Shown in pieces: positions 4,104 through 58,456 of a stretch of 64,000 nt of DNA. The stretch is taken from NCBI GenBank assembly GCA_030706145.1, contig JAUZPB010000005.1, forward strand, positions 1 through 64,000, read 5' to 3'. Under the pieces are notes generated by a model, which saw only the letters and a program-made list of their open reading frames with translations, searched no databases and was not told the origin of the DNA. The stretch is from Bacteroidota bacterium (GTDB taxonomy: Bacteria > Bacteroidota > Ignavibacteria > Ignavibacteriales > SURF-24). Position numbers and translations under genes: made by a program. Position 1 is the stretch's first letter. The number at the start of each line of letters is the position of its first letter.

Positions 4104-4766
4104 ATGAAAACAGAACTTACTGAAAGACAAAAAGAGATTTTGAAGTTTATTCAATCATTTCTTCAATTAAACGGCTACCCTCCGACTATTAGAGAAATTG
4201 GAAGGGAATTTGGTATTAGTTCTACATTTGGAGTAAAAAGGCATCTGGATGCTCTGGCAAAAAAAGGATATTTGACAATAGGAAACAATCTTAGCCGCGG
4301 CTTATCACTTAAGAACCCATTGGAACTTGAGGTTCCGACAGCACTCCTTTCCTCTGGAAACATTCTTCCTGGAACAGAGATTCAGCAAATACCTATTGTT
4401 GGGCGTGTTGCTGCCGGACTCCCGATTTGCGCTATTGAAAACATAGAAGGCGCTATTCCAATTGATGCTGGTCTTTTAAGAAAGAATCCTGATTGCTTTG
4501 CTCTTAAAGTTAAAGGCGATAGCATGATCAATGCAGGCATATTTGAGGGGGACCTGGTCATAGTTGTACCTCAAAAAAATGCCCGAAATGGGGAAATTAT
4601 TGTGGCTCTAATTGGTGATGATGCCACAGTAAAAAGATTCTTTAGAAATGGTGAAGATATCCTTCTGATAGCTGAGAATAATAACTATCAACCCATTGTT
4701 GTAAAAAATCGGGAGGATTTTTCGATAATAGGTAAAGTCATTGGCATTCAGAGATGGTATTACTAA
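4104..4766 (+). CDS. lexA: LexA SOS-response repressor (self-cleaving)
   Basis: A 220-residue LexA of normal length. The winged-helix DNA-binding domain covers about residues 1-65 (LTERQKEILKFI, PPTIREIG). The C-terminal S24 peptidase domain has the cleavage site A104-G105, the catalytic Ser140 in GDSM and Lys177 in ATVKRF. On RecA-ssDNA activation it would cut itself and release SOS genes. The DNA-recognition helix reads ISSTFGVKRHLDAL, somewhat unlike the proteobacterial form, which fits a phylum-specific box. It is preceded by its own promoter and a palindrome that is probably its operator, and followed 38 bases later by two small genes in the same direction that may share the transcript. 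Confidence 0.96.
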   Translation: MKTELTERQKEILKFIQSFLQLNGYPPTIREIGREFGISSTFGVKRHLDALAKKGYLTIGNNLSRGLSLKNPLELEVPTALLSSGNILPGTEIQQIPIVGRVAAGLPICAIENIEGAIPIDAGLLRKNPDCFALKVKGDSMINAGIFEGDLVIVVPQKNARNGEIIVALIGDDATVKRFFRNGEDILLIAENNNYQPIVVKNREDFSIIGKVIGIQRWYY

Positions 4767-4804
4767 AGGTTGGCTAAAAGTTATAACTTAAAGGATTTTC
4801 TATT

Positions 4805-5070: not shown

Positions 5071-5475
5071 ATGGCACTTAAATCTAACAGAGAAAAAGTT
5101 GATATGCTTATCAATTGTTTCTGGCAGAACGGTTACTTAACCATTAGCCGAAGATTCGGTACTTATCTGCCATCTCCTCAACCTGTAGGTACTTATGACG
5201 TTGATGCTGTAGGTAGATATAAAAGAAAGTTTGCCTTTGGAATTATACTCGATTCTGAGGACCTTGCTAATGAATCGACCGCTAATAAGTTGAATTTCCT
5301 TGCAACGCGTCAGACAAGATTTAGCAACACGCGCGTTACTTTGTTTGTAGGTGTTGATTCGGAAAATGCTAAAAAAGCCAGGGAGTTGATTGCTTCTCTT
5401 GATGTTGAAGCTAAACGTAATATTAAGTTAGTTGTAATAGGAGAAAAGGATTTTCCAAAAATAATTCCAAACTAG
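5071..5475 (+). CDS. conserved-looking hypothetical protein, possible nuclease-like fold
   Basis: A 134-residue soluble protein that I do not recognise. It opens with a helix (REKVDMLINCFWQNGYL), then a short acidic strand pair (TYDVDAVGRYKRKFAFGIIL), an SEDLANES turn, a helix, and two further strand-helix units (RVTLFVGVD, IKLVVIGE). The order helix, strand with Asp, strand, helix is reminiscent of PD-(D/E)XK nuclease-fold proteins, but I do not see a convincing (D/E)xK pair, so activity cannot be claimed. GGAG precedes the ATG by about ten bases. Only 26 bases separate it from the WYL-like gene, so the two and lexA probably form one unit. Confidence 0.55.
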   Translation: MALKSNREKVDMLINCFWQNGYLTISRRFGTYLPSPQPVGTYDVDAVGRYKRKFAFGIILDSEDLANESTANKLNFLATRQTRFSNTRVTLFVGVDSENAKKARELIASLDVEAKRNIKLVVIGEKDFPKIIPN

Positions 5476-5836
5476 AAAATTCCACTTCTTTTGTGACTTT
5501 CTGGAGTTTCTCTTTTTTTTCTCTTTTCATGTCTTTTTGCCTTCTTTCCCTGCAAATAGATACACATTTTTTTTGTGTCTTCAATTAAATTATTGAGAAA
5601 TTACAAATATTTCCGAAACAAATTCAAAACTGCTGCTGTCAAAGGGGTAATTATTTCTTAGAACGGCGATTTTTAGCTGAATTCCTCCGTAAATTTTGAT
5701 TTTGAGAAATTACTATTCATTTTACAGAGTAATGCTTTTTCTATTGTGTCTGGCGTATTATTCATAAACTATATTACCTTGACATTTTAAGTCTGTTCAA
5801 GTATTTTTGACTTCTAAATGATTTTATAGAGTAAAA
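5476..5836. other. intergenic region before uppS
   Basis: No gene seen. After the stop codon lies a weak stem (AACTAGAAA with TTTCTggAGTT) ending in a long T run at about 5510-5520, which may terminate the lexA unit. A 12-base direct repeat TTGAGAAATTAC occurs at 5593-5604 and 5702-5713. The uppS promoter is at the right end. Confidence 0.5.
5779..5807 (+). promoter_or_regulatory. sigma-70-type promoter of the uppS-bamA envelope run
   Basis: TTGACA (5779-5784), a 17-base spacer, then TATTTT (5802-5807), about 30 bases before the start codon. Nearly consensus -35 with ideal spacing. Confidence 0.55.
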
Positions 5837-6646
5837 TTGGCAAAAGCACAGAAAGATCAAGATTCGAAAATCCAAGAATCACTTAAAAAATCAGGTGATA
5901 TACCGGTGCATATTGCTATTATTATGGATGGCAATGGCAGGTGGGCACGTCAGAGGGGATTACCAAGAGCAGCCGGTCACAGACAGGGGGTTGAGACAGT
6001 TAGAGATATTGTCAAAGCCTGTGTTGGTCTTGGTGTAAATTATCTCACTCTCTATACTTTCTCCACTGAAAACTGGAAAAGACCCAAAGATGAAGTCACA
6101 ACTCTGATGAGATTGATTGTCAAAAGTTTGCAGAGCGAAACTAATGAATTGCATGCAAACGGAATAAGGTTGACTACAATCGGAAATCAGGATTCTCTTC
6201 CTGGCATTGTACAAAAAGAATTAAACGAAGCAGTCAAAAAAACAGCTGATAATAAGGCCATGACATTGAACTTAGCCTTGAGCTATAGTGGAAGATGGGA
6301 AATTGTTGAAGCTGTTAAAGAGATTGCTAATTTATTGAAAGATGGTAAGATTAATACTGAGGATATCAATGACTCACTTATATCTAAACATCTTACAACC
6401 GGAAATATGCCTGACCCAGACCTTCTGATCCGCAGTGGCGGTGAATTCCGTATTAGCAATTTTTTGCTTTGGCAAATTGCGTATTCAGAAATTTTTATCT
6501 CTGATGTCTTATGGCCCGAATTTTCTCGCAATCACCTCTATGAGGCTATACGGGATTATCAGACAAGAGAAAGAAGGTTTGGTCTGGTAAGTGAACAAAT
6601 TTCGAAGAATTTAAAAGGTTTGTCGAATGCTCAAAACTTGTCTTAA
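5837..6646 (+). CDS. uppS: isoprenyl transferase (undecaprenyl diphosphate synthase)
   Basis: A cis-prenyltransferase of 269 residues that extends farnesyl diphosphate with isopentenyl diphosphate to make the C55 lipid carrier of cell-wall and LPS synthesis. Signatures: IIMDGNGRWARQRGLPR near residue 33, LTLYTFSTENWKRP, and the C-terminal RSGGEFRISNFLLWQ...FSDVLWPEF-type block (here ISDVLWPEF) with the final RERRFG. The start is a TTG; no in-frame ATG lies between it and the catalytic Asp, so the TTG is needed for a full-length enzyme. It overlaps the start of bamA by 20 bases, so the two are translationally linked. Confidence 0.95.
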   Translation: MAKAQKDQDSKIQESLKKSGDIPVHIAIIMDGNGRWARQRGLPRAAGHRQGVETVRDIVKACVGLGVNYLTLYTFSTENWKRPKDEVTTLMRLIVKSLQSETNELHANGIRLTTIGNQDSLPGIVQKELNEAVKKTADNKAMTLNLALSYSGRWEIVEAVKEIANLLKDGKINTEDINDSLISKHLTTGNMPDPDLLIRSGGEFRISNFLLWQIAYSEIFISDVLWPEFSRNHLYEAIRDYQTRERRFGLVSEQISKNLKGLSNAQNLS

Positions 6647-9149
6647 TTGGTCATTAACATTTTTCTCCATTATTCTATGCCTTGCCTTTGCCTCATCTTC
6701 TGAAGCTCAGATGGTAAAGAATCAATATAAGATACTTGGTATTTCTGTCGAAGGAAACAAATCGGCAGATGCCTCTACAATTATTGCTAATAGTGGTCTC
6801 AAAGTCGGTGATGAAATCGATGTGCCCAGTGACCAGACTATCAATGCTATCAGACAACTTTGGTCCCTTAATATCTTTTCTGATGCCCAGCTTTTAATTG
6901 ATAAGCAAATCGATAAAGGCATATTTCTGCTTATCAAAGTCAAAGAGTATCCGCGTGTAGAAAAAGTTGTTTTTGAAGGAAATGACGATATTAGCGAGAA
7001 AGATATTGAAGCTAAGGTTAGTTTTGTAAGAGGCCAGATATTAAAGCCTCAAGACATTATGAATTCTAAGACAAGGATTCTGGGGCTATACGAAGAAGAA
7101 GGATTATTAAATGCTACAGTTGAACCTCTAAAGTATACTTTCCTTGGTGCCGATACAACTAATGATGAAATTAAAGTTACATGGCGCAATTCGGCTGACT
7201 ATTCAGATGAGTATTCAACTACATACAATATAAAAGAAAATTCTAATAATTTTATTTCTAAAGTTAAAGATAGAATTCTTCTGAAATTTAAGATTAAAGA
7301 AGGCGATAAGGTTGTCGTAAGAAAAATTACTTTTACAGGCAACGATCACATTAGTAGTGATGACCTTAAAGGCGCTTTGAACGAGACATCTGAAAAAAAA
7401 TGGTGGAAATTCTGGAGCAGTTCGAAGTTAAATAAGAAAAAATACGAGGAAGATAAAAAAGCTCTGGCTGATTATTACAAGAAAAATGGCTATAGAGATT
7501 TTGACCTTCTTTCTGATTCACTGATCTATTCAAATGATAAAAAAGACGTTCAAATTGTTATTAATGTTTTTGAAGGTCCCCAGTATAAGATAAGAAACAT
7601 TACTTGGGAGGGGAATACAGTCTTTAAGGAATCTGTACTAAATGAAAGATTGGGTTTCGGAAAAGGGGATATTTATAACTATGAAAAGTTCATGCAGAAC
7701 CTTCATGGTAATGAAAAACAGAGCGATGTTGACGGTCTATATAAAGATAATGGTTACCTGATGTCTAACCTTAGAGCTGTGGAGACTAAAGTTGCTGAGG
7801 ATTCAGTTGATATTGACATTAAGGTTACTGAGAATAATCAGTTTAAAATTGGAAGAGTTGATATTACTGGTAACGACAAGACTAAAGATAAAGTTGTTAG
7901 AAGAGAGCTCTTTACTATTCCAAATGATTTTTTTAGCCGTAGTGCTTTATATACTAGTTTTCAACAGCTGGCAAACCTTGGCTACTTTAATCAGGAAAAA
8001 CTTTATAAAGAAGGCGCTGATTACTTCCCTGTAAATGACAGTACAGTTAATATTACTTATAAAGTTGAAGAAAAATCTAGTGACTACCTCAATGCCTCTG
8101 TCGGTTATAGCGGCAGTTTCGGTATGAGTGGTTCGGTGGGTGTGACATTAAAGAATTTTGCAATCGATCATCCTTTCTCCTTGGGTGGTGGCCAAATTCT
8201 TGACTTTAACTGGCAGTTTGGTGTAGGTAACTATTATAGGACTTTTACACTTGGCTTTACAGAGCCTTGGCTGATGGATACCCCAACTTTGCTTGGATTT
8301 GAGGTCTTTGATACCCGTCAGAGCTATTACTATGACCTTGCACAGTACGGTGGAACCATTCGTCTTGGCCGTAGATTAACTTGGCCTGATCACTACTTTA
8401 ATGTGCTTGGTTTCTTCAAATTTCAGCACAATGATATTAATTTCCCTTCGGGTTATTCTAGCTACTACTATTATGCAAATGGTAAATCTAAGCAGTATAC
8501 CTTGGGCGCATCTATTAGTAGAAAAGATATTGATAATCCTATCTTTCCATCTCAGGGCTCTAATGTATCTCTCGATGCTCAGATTTCTGGTGGACCGTTT
8601 CTCCCTGGCGATTTGAATTTCTATAAGTTGCAGTTTAGAGCTGAATGGTATAAGAGATTGTTTAATACAAACCGCATTGCTCTTTATACAGTCGCTGACC
8701 TTGGCTACTTAAATGAACTCGATGAAAAGACTAAGTCAAAGATTAATCCTGTCGATAAATTTTTTATGGGTGGTGCAGGCTTAAGTACTGGCCTTCCAAC
8801 TACTCCACTTAGAGGTTATGACGATAATCTAGTCGGTCCACATAGTGGTACTACTCCTCTTGGTGGAAATGTTCTTGTTAGATACACCGCAGAACTTAGA
8901 GCTGCTCTTGCTCTGGAACCTATTCCAATTTATGTCCTGGCATTTGCAGAAGCTGGAAATGTTTTTAAGAGCATCAGTCAAGACGCTAATCTTTTTGATT
9001 TGAAACGCTCGGTTGGCGTTGGTGCTAGACTAATGATCAATCCTATTGGTTTAATTGGATTCGATTTTGGTTATGGCTTTGATAGAAAGAGTGTCAGCGG
9101 TAACGACCCGGCCTGGATGTTCCATTTCCAATTTGGTAAAGGTTTTTAA
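6627..9149 (+). CDS. bamA: BamA, outer-membrane protein assembly factor
   Basis: An 840-residue Omp85 protein. It has a signal peptide cut as SSSEA|QMVK (A27/Q28), successive POTRA domains over about residues 33-470 (recognisable by repeats such as VRKITFTGNDHISSDDL, KIRNITWEGNTVF and KIGRVDITGNDKT), and a 16-strand-type barrel from about 490 to the terminal Phe. It would be the core of the machine that folds outer-membrane proteins. The POTRA region is longer than usual because of a lysine-rich insertion near residues 250-280 (KKWWKFWSSSKLNKKKYEED). It starts inside uppS and is followed by two chaperone genes, the usual Bacteroidota order. Confidence 0.95.
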   Translation: MLKTCLNWSLTFFSIILCLAFASSSEAQMVKNQYKILGISVEGNKSADASTIIANSGLKVGDEIDVPSDQTINAIRQLWSLNIFSDAQLLIDKQIDKGIFLLIKVKEYPRVEKVVFEGNDDISEKDIEAKVSFVRGQILKPQDIMNSKTRILGLYEEEGLLNATVEPLKYTFLGADTTNDEIKVTWRNSADYSDEYSTTYNIKENSNNFISKVKDRILLKFKIKEGDKVVVRKITFTGNDHISSDDLKGALNETSEKKWWKFWSSSKLNKKKYEEDKKALADYYKKNGYRDFDLLSDSLIYSNDKKDVQIVINVFEGPQYKIRNITWEGNTVFKESVLNERLGFGKGDIYNYEKFMQNLHGNEKQSDVDGLYKDNGYLMSNLRAVETKVAEDSVDIDIKVTENNQFKIGRVDITGNDKTKDKVVRRELFTIPNDFFSRSALYTSFQQLANLGYFNQEKLYKEGADYFPVNDSTVNITYKVEEKSSDYLNASVGYSGSFGMSGSVGVTLKNFAIDHPFSLGGGQILDFNWQFGVGNYYRTFTLGFTEPWLMDTPTLLGFEVFDTRQSYYYDLAQYGGTIRLGRRLTWPDHYFNVLGFFKFQHNDINFPSGYSSYYYYANGKSKQYTLGASISRKDIDNPIFPSQGSNVSLDAQISGGPFLPGDLNFYKLQFRAEWYKRLFNTNRIALYTVADLGYLNELDEKTKSKINPVDKFFMGGAGLSTGLPTTPLRGYDDNLVGPHSGTTPLGGNVLVRYTAELRAALALEPIPIYVLAFAEAGNVFKSISQDANLFDLKRSVGVGARLMINPIGLIGFDFGYGFDRKSVSGNDPAWMFHFQFGKGF

Positions 9150-50537: not shown

Positions 50538-51908
50538 CTAAAAATATGGCCTTGTCCTAAAGGAAACTCCAAGTTCGTTTTCTACAAATTGTTTTGCTTT
50601 TTCTGTATCAATTGAGCTCATTCCAACCACAGTCATAACAACGTTTGTATACTGCTTTGCTTTTCTTGCAAAATCAAGCATTTCTGCATGAAGTTTTGGA
50701 TCTACTCTCATTAGTTTTGCATATTGTTCAGGATCGAATGAATTTAGACTTATTGATACTGTATCAATCAAATTCTTGAACTCTGGAGTAATATCACGTT
50801 TATTTATGAAATTACCATGACCGTTAGTGTTCATTCTTGTTTTGCCACCATTATTCTTAACATAATTGGCAACTTCTTTTACTATATCCCACCTAATTGT
50901 GGGCTCTCCATATCCGCAAAAGACAACTTCACTATACTGCTTTGGATCTCCAATTTCTTTGATATATGTTGTAGCAGGCGGCTCCTCGGATTTTGACATT
51001 TTAAGGTTATATCCCTTTATTACTGCATCACCTTTGCGGTCACAGAAAGTACAATCGGCATCACATCTGTTTGTTGTATTAATATATAATGCGTTTCCTA
51101 TTTTATAGGTATAGCTAATCCCATTTTTTGAGCCTATTCCAAACAGTTTAAATGCGTTATATGAAGTTGAATTAGCAACTGTTTCTATTGGGAGATTCTG
51201 AATCTCAGAGATCTTTTCTGCAACAAGTCTGATATATGATGGTTCGTTTCTTTTTCCCCTGTAAGGTATAGGGGTCATGTATGGGGAATCTGTCTCAAGA
51301 AGAAGGTCTTCAGTCTGTATATTCTTCAGAATATTGCGCAGATTATCTGATTTTTGGAAAGTTATATTTCCTGTAAAAGAGATCATATGTCCAAGCTCAA
51401 CTAATTCTTTTGCATCTGCAAGTGACCCGGAAAAGCAATGCATCTGGCCCTTAAGACAGGTGCCTTTATATGTCCTTAATATCCTCATTATATCTTCATC
51501 AGCTTCCCGGTTGTGTATGATTATTGGCAGGTTTAATTTTAATGCTAAAATAATCTGACTGTCAAGGGCATCTATCTGTTTTTCTTTTGGCGAAAAATCA
51601 TAATAATAATCAAGTCCAATTTCGCCTATGGCTACAACTTTTGGGTGCTTTGCCAATTCTTCAATATTATCTAGAAGTGAATCATTCCACTCTTTTGTAT
51701 CTTGTGGATGAATTCCGACAGCAGCATATATAAAATCATACTTCTCAGCTAGCTCGACTGCCCGCGCAGAACTTGCTAGATCTGTTCCAGGAACTAGTAT
51801 ATAATCTACTCCGGCTTCCTTTGAACGGCTAAGAACTTCATCAATATCCCCATTAAAATTGGGATAAAACAGGTGGGCGTGTGTATCTACAAACATTTTA
51901 TTTATCAT
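50538..51908 (-). CDS. TatD-family nuclease fused to a radical SAM domain
   Basis: A 456-residue two-domain protein. Residues about 5-258 form a complete TatD metal-dependent hydrolase: H10xH12 in DTHAHLF, E96 in GEIGLDYYYD, H132 in IIHNREAD, H157 in MHCFSGS and D207 in ETDSPYMTP. Residues about 265-456 form a radical SAM domain with the iron-sulphur cluster motif C282-x3-C286-x2-C289 in NRCDADCTFCDR and CGYGEPTIRW. Both halves keep their catalytic residues. Radical SAM proteins linked to TatD genes are known as separate neighbours; here they are one chain. The product of the radical SAM half is unknown. The start could also be Met5. Confidence 0.9.
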   Translation of the reverse strand: MINKMFVDTHAHLFYPNFNGDIDEVLSRSKEAGVDYILVPGTDLASSARAVELAEKYDFIYAAVGIHPQDTKEWNDSLLDNIEELAKHPKVVAIGEIGLDYYYDFSPKEKQIDALDSQIILALKLNLPIIIHNREADEDIMRILRTYKGTCLKGQMHCFSGSLADAKELVELGHMISFTGNITFQKSDNLRNILKNIQTEDLLLETDSPYMTPIPYRGKRNEPSYIRLVAEKISEIQNLPIETVANSTSYNAFKLFGIGSKNGISYTYKIGNALYINTTNRCDADCTFCDRKGDAVIKGYNLKMSKSEEPPATTYIKEIGDPKQYSEVVFCGYGEPTIRWDIVKEVANYVKNNGGKTRMNTNGHGNFINKRDITPEFKNLIDTVSISLNSFDPEQYAKLMRVDPKLHAEMLDFARKAKQYTNVVMTVVGMSSIDTEKAKQFVENELGVSFRTRPYF

Positions 51909-54867: not shown

Positions 54868-57800
54868 TCACATTATTTTGAATTGGGTCAGATAGCTGCT
54901 CAATAATGTGTTATCTATTAGAGTTAAATAATTTAGCTTTAGTGTGTTGTATTTGCTGCATTCAGTTGAAAATTCACCTGTAGTAATTATGACCCCTTTT
55001 GCAAATTGTTTCTGCTTTGAAAAATATCCTAAGAATTCTAATATATCTGCCTCCTTTACAAGATGATTATGGTAAAGCCTAATTAATACTTTCTCTTGCC
55101 TCTGGTTTATAAGCTTTGTAGCCTCTAGAGTTGTAATGTTGTTTATGGAATTAAAATCCAGTTCCTTAAGCTGTGCAAACCCTGTTTTCAATAGAAAACT
55201 ACTAGTTAAATTCTTAAAGTTTTCGCTGGAACATTCCTTTATTGATTCAATTGAATCATTAAAGTCAGGGGCTTGTTCAGTTAAAATGTCAGCCTTATCA
55301 AACTTGAGCTCGAAGAGTTCAAACCACTCTTCTGTAGATATTATATCTGCGATGATACTTTGCGAAAGTGACTCTATCAATAGCCTGTTTAAGACCCCCT
55401 TTTTCATAAGTATTTCGTAGATTTTTTCTTCAATTATGCCTCTAGTGCGGAAATACTGGACTAATACATGTTTTCTATTAGTGCTGCATATTCTCTCTTC
55501 AGCAAGCCAAAGTGTAATAGGATTCCACCATTGATCAAAGTGCAATATCTGATCAAAATCTCCAAGATCCATTTCCTTGTTTACTGCTTTTATATCAGCT
55601 AGAAAGATTGTTGTCTCTTTGTTCATCCTGAAGCTTCTACAAACCTGCTCAGTTTGTAGATTATTCATTCCTGCCCGGTATGTTACGAAGTTGATTTTAT
55701 GCTCGGTGAAAAGCTCTTCAAGTCTTTTTAAGCCGAATTTTTCATATTGTGAGAAAACTACCGCCTTTTTACCATGCTGAGATATTCTTTGGACATCTTC
55801 AATCAGGGTATTTACCTTTGAGCTCGCACTTCCACTGGAAGGGAAATTCAATACCTGCATTAGTTCATGCAGTATTGTAAAGATTTGGGGTCTTATGACA
55901 AAAAGATTTCCCCTTTCAATTGAGCCATAGAGTTTTAATTGCCCTTGTTCAAGTACTACCTTATAATCTCTTGACTGCTCTTCGCTTAGGTCGAACCATC
56001 TGTGCTTTACAACTCTCTTTGGAAATTTTTCACTTAGATCCTTTGCTGACCTTCCAATGGCAAAGTCAGTAAGTGACCCTGAGCTCTCCTGTGATTTCTT
56101 TTCTTTGTTCTGAGGGACTAAATTGATAAAGTAAGAAATTATATTGCTTTCAAATTCTTCAATAGGCGAATTATCAAGTATCCACAAGTATTTGGGCCTT
56201 AGTTTTTGAAATATTCTGTCTCTTTGGTATGAAGTGAGTCTGAAAGATAGATAATTGTCTAGAAGTATACAGTCAAACTGCTTTAACCTTCTAAAATCAA
56301 TTGTCTCTTCTGCTTCATCAAATAAGAGGTTTTCATATGAAATTATATGGATGTTGGCTTGAGCGTTCCACTGTCTTATTCTTTCTGATTTGTCTGAACT
56401 TAGCACAATAGTTTTTAATTCAGGAGCCCAGACCTCTAAGTGACCTAACCAGCCATCAGGGATTGTTCGGTTTAACTCATGTCGATCTCTTCCAATATCT
56501 GATGGATTGCAGATTATAAGTGCAGACTTGATCTTTTTCCTTTTTACCAGATGCCCTAGTGCTGACACGGCCTGTACTGTTTTACCTAGCCCGGATTGAT
56601 CTGCTAATAGTGCAAAAGAATTATTTATTAGAAGATTAACCCCCTGGATCTGAAATTCATAAAGTCCTTTTGACGGTTCATCGGTAAAATCGGCTTGATA
56701 GTCCGGCGGGGGACAAAGAGCTGGGATATTTTCCGGATCTTCAGATTTTATTTTGACCTTATTAAAACGCTGAATTGTTTCCTTTCCAATAAATGGTAGG
56801 GAAGAGCTTTTCCGACTTATATCTAACTCAATTGAGCCATTTTCCTGTACAAAGATATTGCTTAGATTTTGATTTAATAAGTTTCTCGAAACGCTTCCTT
56901 GTTCTATAGAATTTACAGGGAATCCCATGAAACCATTTTCCCTTATGCGTAGTCCTTGCGTAGATGGACGAAGTACTTTTACCAATTCTGTCAAATCCAA
57001 TTTCTCAATTGGATATTCATAGGTCTTTGGAGAATCTTCGTCAAAACTTGCATGCTCTAACTTATAGGTCGAAACATCAAAGCTGCCTAAATCAAGTAGG
57101 GAAATGTCGTATGTAGACGGTACTTTTGCTATTAACTCTTCAGAAACTTTTGTTATACCGAAAAAGAACTTTCTTAAAGCTTCTTCTTTTGTAATTTCCG
57201 TATCGGTGCCGGAAGATAAAAGATCATTACTTATCGATTGTTTTTCTAGGAAATAAGAGTCCAGTACTTGCTTTCCAATTAAACTGTTATCAGTTGAAAA
57301 TGAAAAATCTATTGACCTTGAAAGTGCTTCGTATTTCTTAAAAATCCAGTCAAATTGATCTGTGCTGTATATAACTGTCTCATATTCAGCAGGAAGAAGA
57401 TTCTCTATTACAATAAAGGATTGAATTATTGTTTCGTAAGCTGATTGTGAATGTTGCGGATCTGGTATCTCTATCTTCTTTGTTACAGTTGGAATAACAT
57501 TTGTCTTTGAATTAAAAACAGTAAAGACAAGGGCTTGTTTCTCACCATCTAGAAAAAGCTTTTCTGAAATCCTGCTTGCTGGGAGGTTAAAAAACAGTCT
57601 ATGTGATTTTGGTTGAACTAAAGCAAAATGCTTCGGCTTTGTAGGCTGAATTCGTAAAAACTTGTCAAAGGATTTCCTTTGGAGTATTGAGACCCTTCTT
57701 AGGTAAAATTCGCATGCCTCTGTTAATGCTGGTGCAATCCAGGGATCATAGTGCTCACTTTGCTGCAGTCCAGGTTGATCAAGCTGAAATACCTGCGTAC

Positions 57801-57900
57801 TGTGCGAAGGAGGCTTTAACCATCGCTTCCAGACAAGATCGTCCGGAATACTCAAAGGCTTTATTGAGGAAGCTAACTTTGCTCTAAGATCATTTATCAT
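54868..57900 (-). CDS. SNF2-like helicase-fold protein with degenerate motifs and Mrr-like C-terminus
   Basis: A 1010-residue protein. Residues 1-400 match nothing I know, though Pro- and Tyr-rich segments recur. Residues about 405-850 are SNF2-like: motif I is intact (LLADQSGLGKT, K440/T441), and VVFSQYEKFGLKRLEELF starts the second lobe. Motif II, normally DEAH, is L-L-D548-N-Y; motif III (LTGTP) is LDNSP; motif VI keeps WWNP but changes QxxxRxxR to AEERICSTNR. Residues about 936-1004 resemble the end of the Mrr restriction-endonuclease fold (KGVIITTGEFSTECSKY, LTLIDNTLLSSYL), but the QxK catalytic position reads RLY. It follows a 177-residue gene by 22 bases. ATP binding is likely, hydrolysis and cleavage doubtful. 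Confidence 0.75.
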   Translation of the reverse strand: MINDLRAKLASSIKPLSIPDDLVWKRWLKPPSHSTQVFQLDQPGLQQSEHYDPWIAPALTEACEFYLRRVSILQRKSFDKFLRIQPTKPKHFALVQPKSHRLFFNLPASRISEKLFLDGEKQALVFTVFNSKTNVIPTVTKKIEIPDPQHSQSAYETIIQSFIVIENLLPAEYETVIYSTDQFDWIFKKYEALSRSIDFSFSTDNSLIGKQVLDSYFLEKQSISNDLLSSGTDTEITKEEALRKFFFGITKVSEELIAKVPSTYDISLLDLGSFDVSTYKLEHASFDEDSPKTYEYPIEKLDLTELVKVLRPSTQGLRIRENGFMGFPVNSIEQGSVSRNLLNQNLSNIFVQENGSIELDISRKSSSLPFIGKETIQRFNKVKIKSEDPENIPALCPPPDYQADFTDEPSKGLYEFQIQGVNLLINNSFALLADQSGLGKTVQAVSALGHLVKRKKIKSALIICNPSDIGRDRHELNRTIPDGWLGHLEVWAPELKTIVLSSDKSERIRQWNAQANIHIISYENLLFDEAEETIDFRRLKQFDCILLDNYLSFRLTSYQRDRIFQKLRPKYLWILDNSPIEEFESNIISYFINLVPQNKEKKSQESSGSLTDFAIGRSAKDLSEKFPKRVVKHRWFDLSEEQSRDYKVVLEQGQLKLYGSIERGNLFVIRPQIFTILHELMQVLNFPSSGSASSKVNTLIEDVQRISQHGKKAVVFSQYEKFGLKRLEELFTEHKINFVTYRAGMNNLQTEQVCRSFRMNKETTIFLADIKAVNKEMDLGDFDQILHFDQWWNPITLWLAEERICSTNRKHVLVQYFRTRGIIEEKIYEILMKKGVLNRLLIESLSQSIIADIISTEEWFELFELKFDKADILTEQAPDFNDSIESIKECSSENFKNLTSSFLLKTGFAQLKELDFNSINNITTLEATKLINQRQEKVLIRLYHNHLVKEADILEFLGYFSKQKQFAKGVIITTGEFSTECSKYNTLKLNYLTLIDNTLLSSYLTQFKIM

Positions 57901-57922: not shown

Positions 57923-58456
57923 TTATTCATCAACCTTCTGAAGATGAACTTGTTCGCAGGCTATCCTTAAGCGATCAAAAGGTTCTATTAGATTTCTATA
58001 GGTCGAAATGCTTCCTAGTCTTTCCCGGATCTCTGGTAATTCATTTGCAAATTTTCTGGTGGTTTCAATGAGTATCTTTCCACTGTCTCCGCTAAGAGCA
58101 AAAGGCTCTTCATCGGATTTGTTTGCCTTTGAAGGTTCTTCATCTTCATTAAATAGCCTGACAGCCCTGACTCCCTGTTTATTGTTTATTCCTAAGAAAA
58201 GTGGATCTCTAACCAAAATTAGATCTATATCATCTTTTATTGCTCCTAAAAGAGGTAAGGCTATTAGCTCAACTAGAATATGTTCGTGAAGAACGTTTCC
58301 ATATAGTGTTTTCTGAAAACTTGTTGGTTTTATTGGCGCTGTTACTCTAAATTCCAGAGGTTTTGTGTCCGGGTCTGTTACTAAAATCGCTCCCATAATT
58401 CCGGATTTGTCATCGAAACTGTAAGTCTCCAAAAATGCTATTCTAACTAAATCCAT
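57923..58456 (-). CDS. hypothetical protein in a unit with the SNF2-like gene
   Basis: A 177-residue soluble protein. The N-terminal half has a distinct pattern: FLETYSFDDKSGIMGAILVTD, PLEFRVTAPIKPTSFQKTLYG, then HILVELIALPLLGAI and LILVRDPLFLGI. The C-terminal half is charged and helical with a low-complexity acidic stretch (NEDEEPSKANKSDEEP). I do not know a function. AGGAGT precedes the ATG by seven bases, a much better ribosome site than that of the SNF2-like gene after it, so it is probably translated in larger amounts. Confidence 0.65.
   Translation of the reverse strand: MDLVRIAFLETYSFDDKSGIMGAILVTDPDTKPLEFRVTAPIKPTSFQKTLYGNVLHEHILVELIALPLLGAIKDDIDLILVRDPLFLGINNKQGVRAVRLFNEDEEPSKANKSDEEPFALSGDSGKILIETTRKFANELPEIRERLGSISTYRNLIEPFDRLRIACEQVHLQKVDE

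Follow-up and report, generated by a model that had tools for sequence, protein, structure and literature searches.

Gene content of the locus

The window analysed here is a 64,000-nucleotide stretch of an Ignavibacteriales genome (contig JAUZPB010000005.1 of assembly GCA_030706145.1, positions 1 to 64,000). It encodes a 1010-residue SNF2-fold protein and, directly upstream on the same strand and 22 nt apart, a 177-residue protein that we refer to as p177 (Table 1). The preliminary description of this DNA had presented the longer frame as an SNF2-fold protein with eroded motifs; the frame and fold proved real, with Pfam and Foldseek in agreement, and every residue position named there (GLGKT, LLDNY, WWNP, RLY and KGVIITTGEF) was correct on re-checking. 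Pfam places an SNF2-related domain at residues 417–594 (E = 2.9e-18), Helicase_C at residues 699–803 (E = 1e-8) and Mrr_cat at residues 887–1001 (E = 5e-5, exceeding the curated cut-off). The top PDB match returned by Foldseek for the model of the 1010-residue protein is the Sulfolobus SWI2/SNF2 core 1z63 (E = 6e-25, TM 0.74 on the target), and residues 412–866 map onto this core in PDB sequence and fold searches.

Table 1. Features of the p177–SNF2 locus in window coordinates.
Feature	Position	Strand	Basis
SNF2-fold pseudo-helicase with inactive Mrr-like tail, 1010 aa	54868..57900	(-)	ORF, Pfam, AlphaFold model, Foldseek
Basic helix and W-L-[RK]-x-P box, residues 1–31, candidate docking site	57808..57900	(-)	Conservation
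Fast-evolving region, residues 32–409, mostly pLDDT <50	56674..57807	(-)	Model
SNF2 lobe 1, residues 412–595	56116..56667	(-)	Pfam, model
Walker A GLGKT, residues 437–441, intact in window copy	56578..56592	(-)	Motif positions
Motif II LLDNY, residues 546–550, Glu of DE replaced by Asn	56251..56265	(-)	Motif comparison
Motif III region WILDNSPI, residues 573–580, TGT lost clade-wide	56161..56184	(-)	Motif comparison
SNF2 lobe 2, residues 620–865	55306..56043	(-)	Pfam, model
WWNP, residues 791–794; W.P in 35/36 partners	55519..55530	(-)	Motif positions
Motif VI position, residues 799–809; arginine finger absent in 36/36	55474..55506	(-)	Motif comparison
Inactive Mrr-like PD-(D/E)XK tail, residues 878–1010	54871..55269	(-)	Mrr_cat, alignment, model
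R941-L942-Y943 replacing QxK	55072..55080	(-)	Tail alignment, motif positions
p177, 177 aa, first gene of pair, predicted RNase H-like fold	57923..58456	(-)	ORF, conservation, model

Motor motifs of the SNF2-fold protein

The two-lobe SNF2 fold of active motors is present in the window protein by Pfam, model and Foldseek, and motif I is kept; motifs II, III and VI, the last together with its arginine finger, are lost. The segments LDNSPIE and AEERICSTN occupy residues 575–581 and 800–808, respectively. Across the Ignavibacteriales partners of p177, neither the TGT of motif III nor the RxxRxG of motif VI occurs in any of 36 proteins. The Walker A pattern GxGK[TS] is kept in 11 of the 36 and gone in 25, with at least four changes of state on the tree, and the DE of motif II is kept in 19. 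Walker A and DE occur together in five members, which, to judge from these motifs, might still bind or hydrolyse ATP to some extent. Residues Asn685, Lys695, Asp789 and Pro794 are invariant among the SNF2 partners, and conservation is slightly higher in lobe 2 than in lobe 1. Since one partner has lost lobe 1 (L052, the same gene as L045) and the tail is absent in three of the 36 (L054, L055 and L062), no part of the protein is universal except lobe 2.

Decay in this strain had been named as an alternative in the preliminary description. The motif losses are conserved as losses in the orthologues and are therefore not decay in one strain. The ATP-binding scaffold proposed there divides into two parts. 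The scaffold is supported by a retained fold, absent catalytic motifs, purifying selection and intact relatives (see below), whereas ATP binding as the retained function is rejected on the distribution of Walker A and its repeated changes of state.

C-terminal tail and N-terminal region

A canonical Mrr (...GIDGII...YIQAK...) encoded in the genome of a relative aligns with the C-terminal tail, whose elements in the AlphaFold model follow a PD-(D/E)XK-like order. By Mrr_cat and this order the PD-(D/E)XK fold is present in the window tail, and the catalytic Asp and the QxK pair are missing; IRLYHN spans residues 940–945 and KGVIITTGEF residues 968–977. A complete nuclease site (an acidic residue plus QxK) was found in none of 33 tails examined by alignment. 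The family of inactive restriction endonucleases PF22722 matches the window tail weakly (E = 0.01, below the cut-off). The tail thus remains Mrr-type and inactive-looking, as originally described: Mrr_cat scores above its cut-off, RLY stands in place of QxK and the catalytic pair is incomplete in every tail.

The N-terminal ∼400 residues had been said to match nothing known, and this holds, with a model of low confidence (mostly pLDDT <50) and no family match in the searches for one. The length of the region varies among partners. Its conserved island is formed by residues 1–31, in which residues 1–16 carry a mean net charge of +3.5, 30 of 36 partners have a W-L-[RK]-x-P box at about residue 27 and Arg6, Ala10, Trp27 and Pro31 are nearly invariant; from this conservation, our best guess for a p177 docking site would be this island. 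Hydrophobic h-x-h-x-LL motifs number 29 in 40 partners against a shuffle mean of 11, but a SENLL-like linear motif was rejected as a docking site, being present in nine of 40 members although it exceeds the shuffles overall. An RNase H-like reading of residues 105–230 from predicted element order was likewise set aside at pLDDT ∼40. Two partners (L063, 6535–10026, and L077, 6541–9534) contain short internal repeats in their N-terminal regions, for example DHSDLYGLN and NIELLxP.

Conservation and predicted fold of p177

p177 has no family in Pfam or NCBIfam and no clear match in PADLOC, and it is the most conserved component of the pair. Across the order it is 52–80% identical to the window copy, with a mean column identity of 69% and 26 invariant columns in 42 sequences, compared with ∼20–30% identity and a mean column identity of 21% (38 sequences) for the SNF2 partner. 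An AlphaFold2 model built from the 42-sequence alignment (pLDDT 82, pTM 0.80) has the element order β-β-β-α-β-α-β. Endonuclease V accounts for the 15 top Foldseek matches (E = 1e-5 to 1e-3); lower in the ranking come an uncharacterized Archaeoglobus protein, Argonaute/PIWI and RNase H. Foldseek assigns a probability of 1.00, but with TM scores of 0.41–0.59 and large r.m.s.d. values; because the match is this moderate, the function of p177 does not follow from it, although the model makes a nucleic-acid-binding role plausible.

In RNase H-like nucleases a catalytic acid is expected on the first strand. Asp28, Glu35, Glu63 and Asp84 are invariant in the 42 p177 sequences. Position 10, which we assume to be the structural equivalent of the strand 1 acid, is Glu or Asp in 37 of 42 and Gly or Ala in five, so on this assumption the acid is not conserved; the Gly/Ala set includes the cyanobacterial and acidobacterial p177 proteins that adjoin intact SNF2 partners.

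Distant relatives of p177 also occur in a different two-gene unit, in which a p177-like gene overlaps or adjoins one for an unannotated protein of ∼180–300 residues (L136–L138, around 5200–8300, L143 and L145–L155). The genomes with this unit come from the same phyla as the cyanobacterial and acidobacterial ones discussed below; in the L091 phylum, ∼25 of 297 genomes have it. Genes for FliA-type sigma factors, an FHA-GGDEF protein or Ser/Thr kinases lie close by.

Pairing and distribution

Relatives were found by searching with the SNF2 protein, and 20 neighbourhoods were then read. p177 precedes the SNF2 gene in 16 other genomes with gaps of −37 to +8 nt; the two genes are thus adjacent in 17 of the 17 pairs read including the window (gaps −37 to +22 nt), a partnership that the preliminary description had not mentioned. 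Order and orientation are the same in essentially every genome with either gene. When the order was searched with a profile, 42 of 164 Ignavibacteriales genomes, representing 20 of 68 genera, each proved to have exactly one p177, and in a 297-genome phylum sample all eight matches fell in Ignavibacteriales. Scanning a GTDB-based contig collection gave 42 p177 loci, nearly all from Ignavibacteria or from Bacteroidetes-labelled MAGs, the latter grouping in the same clade as Ignavibacteria; one contig labelled Gammaproteobacteria (L068) is possibly mis-binned. No description of the p177–SNF2 pair was found in literature searches.

Relatives with intact motors

Four p177 homologues outside Ignavibacteriales, with 38–45% identity, adjoin SNF2 proteins in which all motifs are intact (four of four). 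They come from Nostoc TH1S01 (L089), Symplocastrum torsivum (L090), an Acidobacteria MAG (L091) and a genome of the same phylum (G725, L142). The C-termini of these SNF2 proteins differ: that of Nostoc carries a phosphorylase/nucleosidase domain (PNP_UDP_1, E = 3e-17) that PADLOC labels 'Effector, PN-superfamily' (E = 1e-27), that of Symplocastrum has no assigned domain and the L091 protein stops soon after the helicase. The intact relatives look defence-like. They are also sporadic: ∼245 genomes sampled from each cyanobacterial order contained no more pairs, and searches of the orders to which the Nostoc, Symplocastrum and G725 genomes belong did not add any. Upstream of the Nostoc pair (4135–4787 and 5926–9368 of L089) are two short genes, next to each other, that resemble a toxin–antitoxin pair. 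In Nostoc mirabile a truncated remnant (L092, 6001–6660) consists of the first half of p177 fused in frame to a piece of SNF2 lobe 2.

Selection and phylogeny

In close pairs, dN/dS is 0.02–0.07 for p177, where synonymous sites were not saturated, and 0.07–0.18 for the SNF2 partner; the values are approximate because dS is high in the pairs used, and they place both genes under purifying selection. In an unrooted maximum-likelihood tree, the 35 dead SNF2 proteins form one clade (SH-aLRT 100) with long branches, and the p177-linked SNF2 proteins, dead and intact together, are separated from 15 unlinked SNF2 proteins with a support of 100. Purifying selection and monophyly together indicate an old pseudo-enzyme and not local decay, against which the orthologues, the dN/dS values and the tree all speak. 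The topology supports a single origin of the pairing with later loss of the motor. Because the tree has no root and intact partners number only four, the direction from intact to dead is one that we infer from general knowledge of SNF2 proteins and the unlinked outgroup.

Genomic context

The pair in the window is surrounded by genes for an AIR synthase, HrcA, GrpE, DnaJ, a TatD–radical SAM fusion, a TonB receptor and a D-Ala-D-Ala carboxypeptidase. In the fusion (50538–51908) a TatD-type DNase is joined to a radical SAM domain. Local synteny is common to subgroups of the Ignavibacteriales pairs, as expected from vertical inheritance. No p177 matches were found in plasmids, phages or viral contigs, and a mobile-element origin of the Ignavibacteriales form was rejected on this basis.

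The PADLOC model of ZorD matches the window protein partially (66 bits, E = 6e-19) and that of DpdE matches its helicase weakly (E = 1.4e-20). The NCBIfam ZorD equivalog gives no match, and the DpdE equivalog scores 23 bits against a cut-off of 500. No MotA/MotB-type or other Zorya partner genes are present among the ten window neighbours, nor are dpd genes among them. Membership of Zorya, Dpd or DISARM was rejected, the scores being partial and the partner genes absent. The defence role first suggested finds no support for the Ignavibacteriales form, which is single-copy, has housekeeping neighbours and lacks matches in the mobile and viral sequences searched.

Interpretation

What we observe directly is that the genes are paired, that motifs are lost, that both genes are under selection and that intact relatives exist. 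On balance we lean towards reading p177 and its partner as a domesticated two-gene unit, in which the SNF2 half would act together with p177 on nucleic acid as a scaffold independent of ATP. With intact motors in other phyla, the pair has the appearance of a two-gene machine put to a new use. Its ancestor may have been an ATP-driven DNA translocase with its activity or targeting coupled to p177, and with an effector, nuclease-like or nucleosidase, carried at the SNF2 C-terminus. In Ignavibacteriales this translocase would have been domesticated into the scaffold: the N-terminal helix and the WLxP box may dock p177, the SNF2 frame and the Mrr-like tail may serve to hold nucleic acid or a different partner, and the working surface under constraint may be that of p177, which would probably bind nucleic acid but not cleave it by the standard RNase H mechanism. 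Both the binding of p177 to its partner and the nucleic-acid target are steps that we infer, and the cellular job of the pair would most likely be chromosomal or regulatory rather than phage restriction.

A broader proposal, which we put forward tentatively and consider rather less probable, is that the pair represents an undescribed class in which an RNase H-fold sensor or adaptor is combined with an SNF2 translocase bearing exchangeable C-terminal effectors (nucleosidase or Mrr-like). Such a class would probably act as a conflict system in Cyanobacteria and Acidobacteria and would have been captured by one order as an ATP-independent, vertically inherited, nucleic-acid-associated complex with a pseudo-helicase at its core.

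By analogy with HamA–HamB of Hachiman, p177 could instead be an active Endonuclease V-like nuclease and the dead SNF2 protein its targeting or inhibitory subunit. The Endonuclease V matches, the four invariant acidic residues and the arrangement of a small gene beside that of an SF2-type helicase fit this idea, but the first-strand acid is not conserved, the fold match is moderate and the Hachiman helicase is active (PMC12278908); we regard it as unlikely. More doubtful still is the reading as a functional system for restriction or anti-phage defence, of the Zorya, Dpd or Mrr type, with merely divergent motifs. The weak DpdE and ZorD matches over the helicase, the Mrr_cat match in the tail and the closeness of the intact relatives to ZorD and SCO1167-type helicases, one with a nucleosidase effector, are what such a system might leave; against it, the whole clade lacks motifs III and VI as well as the nuclease residues, no MotA/MotB or other system partners occur among the housekeeping neighbours in the window, and the pair is single-copy per genome, shares local synteny and is absent from the phages, plasmids and viral contigs searched. 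That the SNF2 gene is a slow pseudogene in decay and p177 alone matters is very improbable, since its fast divergence relative to p177 and the pieces missing from four partners (lobe 1 in one, the tail in three) are set against 36 long intact ORFs, low dN/dS in close pairs, four invariant residues with WWNP kept, strict pairing with p177 and no close strain seen with a frameshifted or deleted partner beside an intact p177.

Bacterial pseudo-enzymes derived from SNF2 motors appear to be little described, and none like the p177-linked form emerged from the library searches. A dead-motor clade with a selected frame makes the role of the SNF2 fold without ATP directly testable. p177 points to a new protein family with distant relatives in two other phyla, some near sigma factors or kinases, and the domesticated unit may illustrate a route from a defence-like system to a resident cellular complex.

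Comparison with known systems

Hachiman resembles the p177–SNF2 pair by analogy, as a two-gene unit of a small protein and an SF2 helicase-fold protein; it differs in that its helicase, HamB, is active and its effector nuclease is HamA (PMC12278908), and p177 has no PADLOC match to Hachiman. Endonuclease V and PIWI share the RNase H-like fold predicted for p177, which lacks sequence similarity to them and does not conserve the first catalytic acid. Among named families, the intact p177-linked SNF2 proteins best match NF053675 (pilus_reg_Snf2), NF058637 (SCO1167/SCO6262 helicase) and NF041790 (ZorD), with E values of 1e-39 to 1e-75 but scores of 134–255 bits against cut-offs of 1100–1500, and p177 itself has no match in these libraries. 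The ∼115-residue window tail aligns end to end with the catalytic domain of Mrr type IV restriction endonucleases (PF04471), although such tails never combine the acidic residue with QxK. Compared with the SNF2/Rad54 ATPases (Sulfolobus SNF2 core 1z63/1z6a), the Ignavibacteriales clade is without motifs III and VI, has lost motif II in about half of its members and often lacks Walker A, yet it shares with them the two-lobe fold and the conserved blocks around WWNP and Asn685/Lys695.
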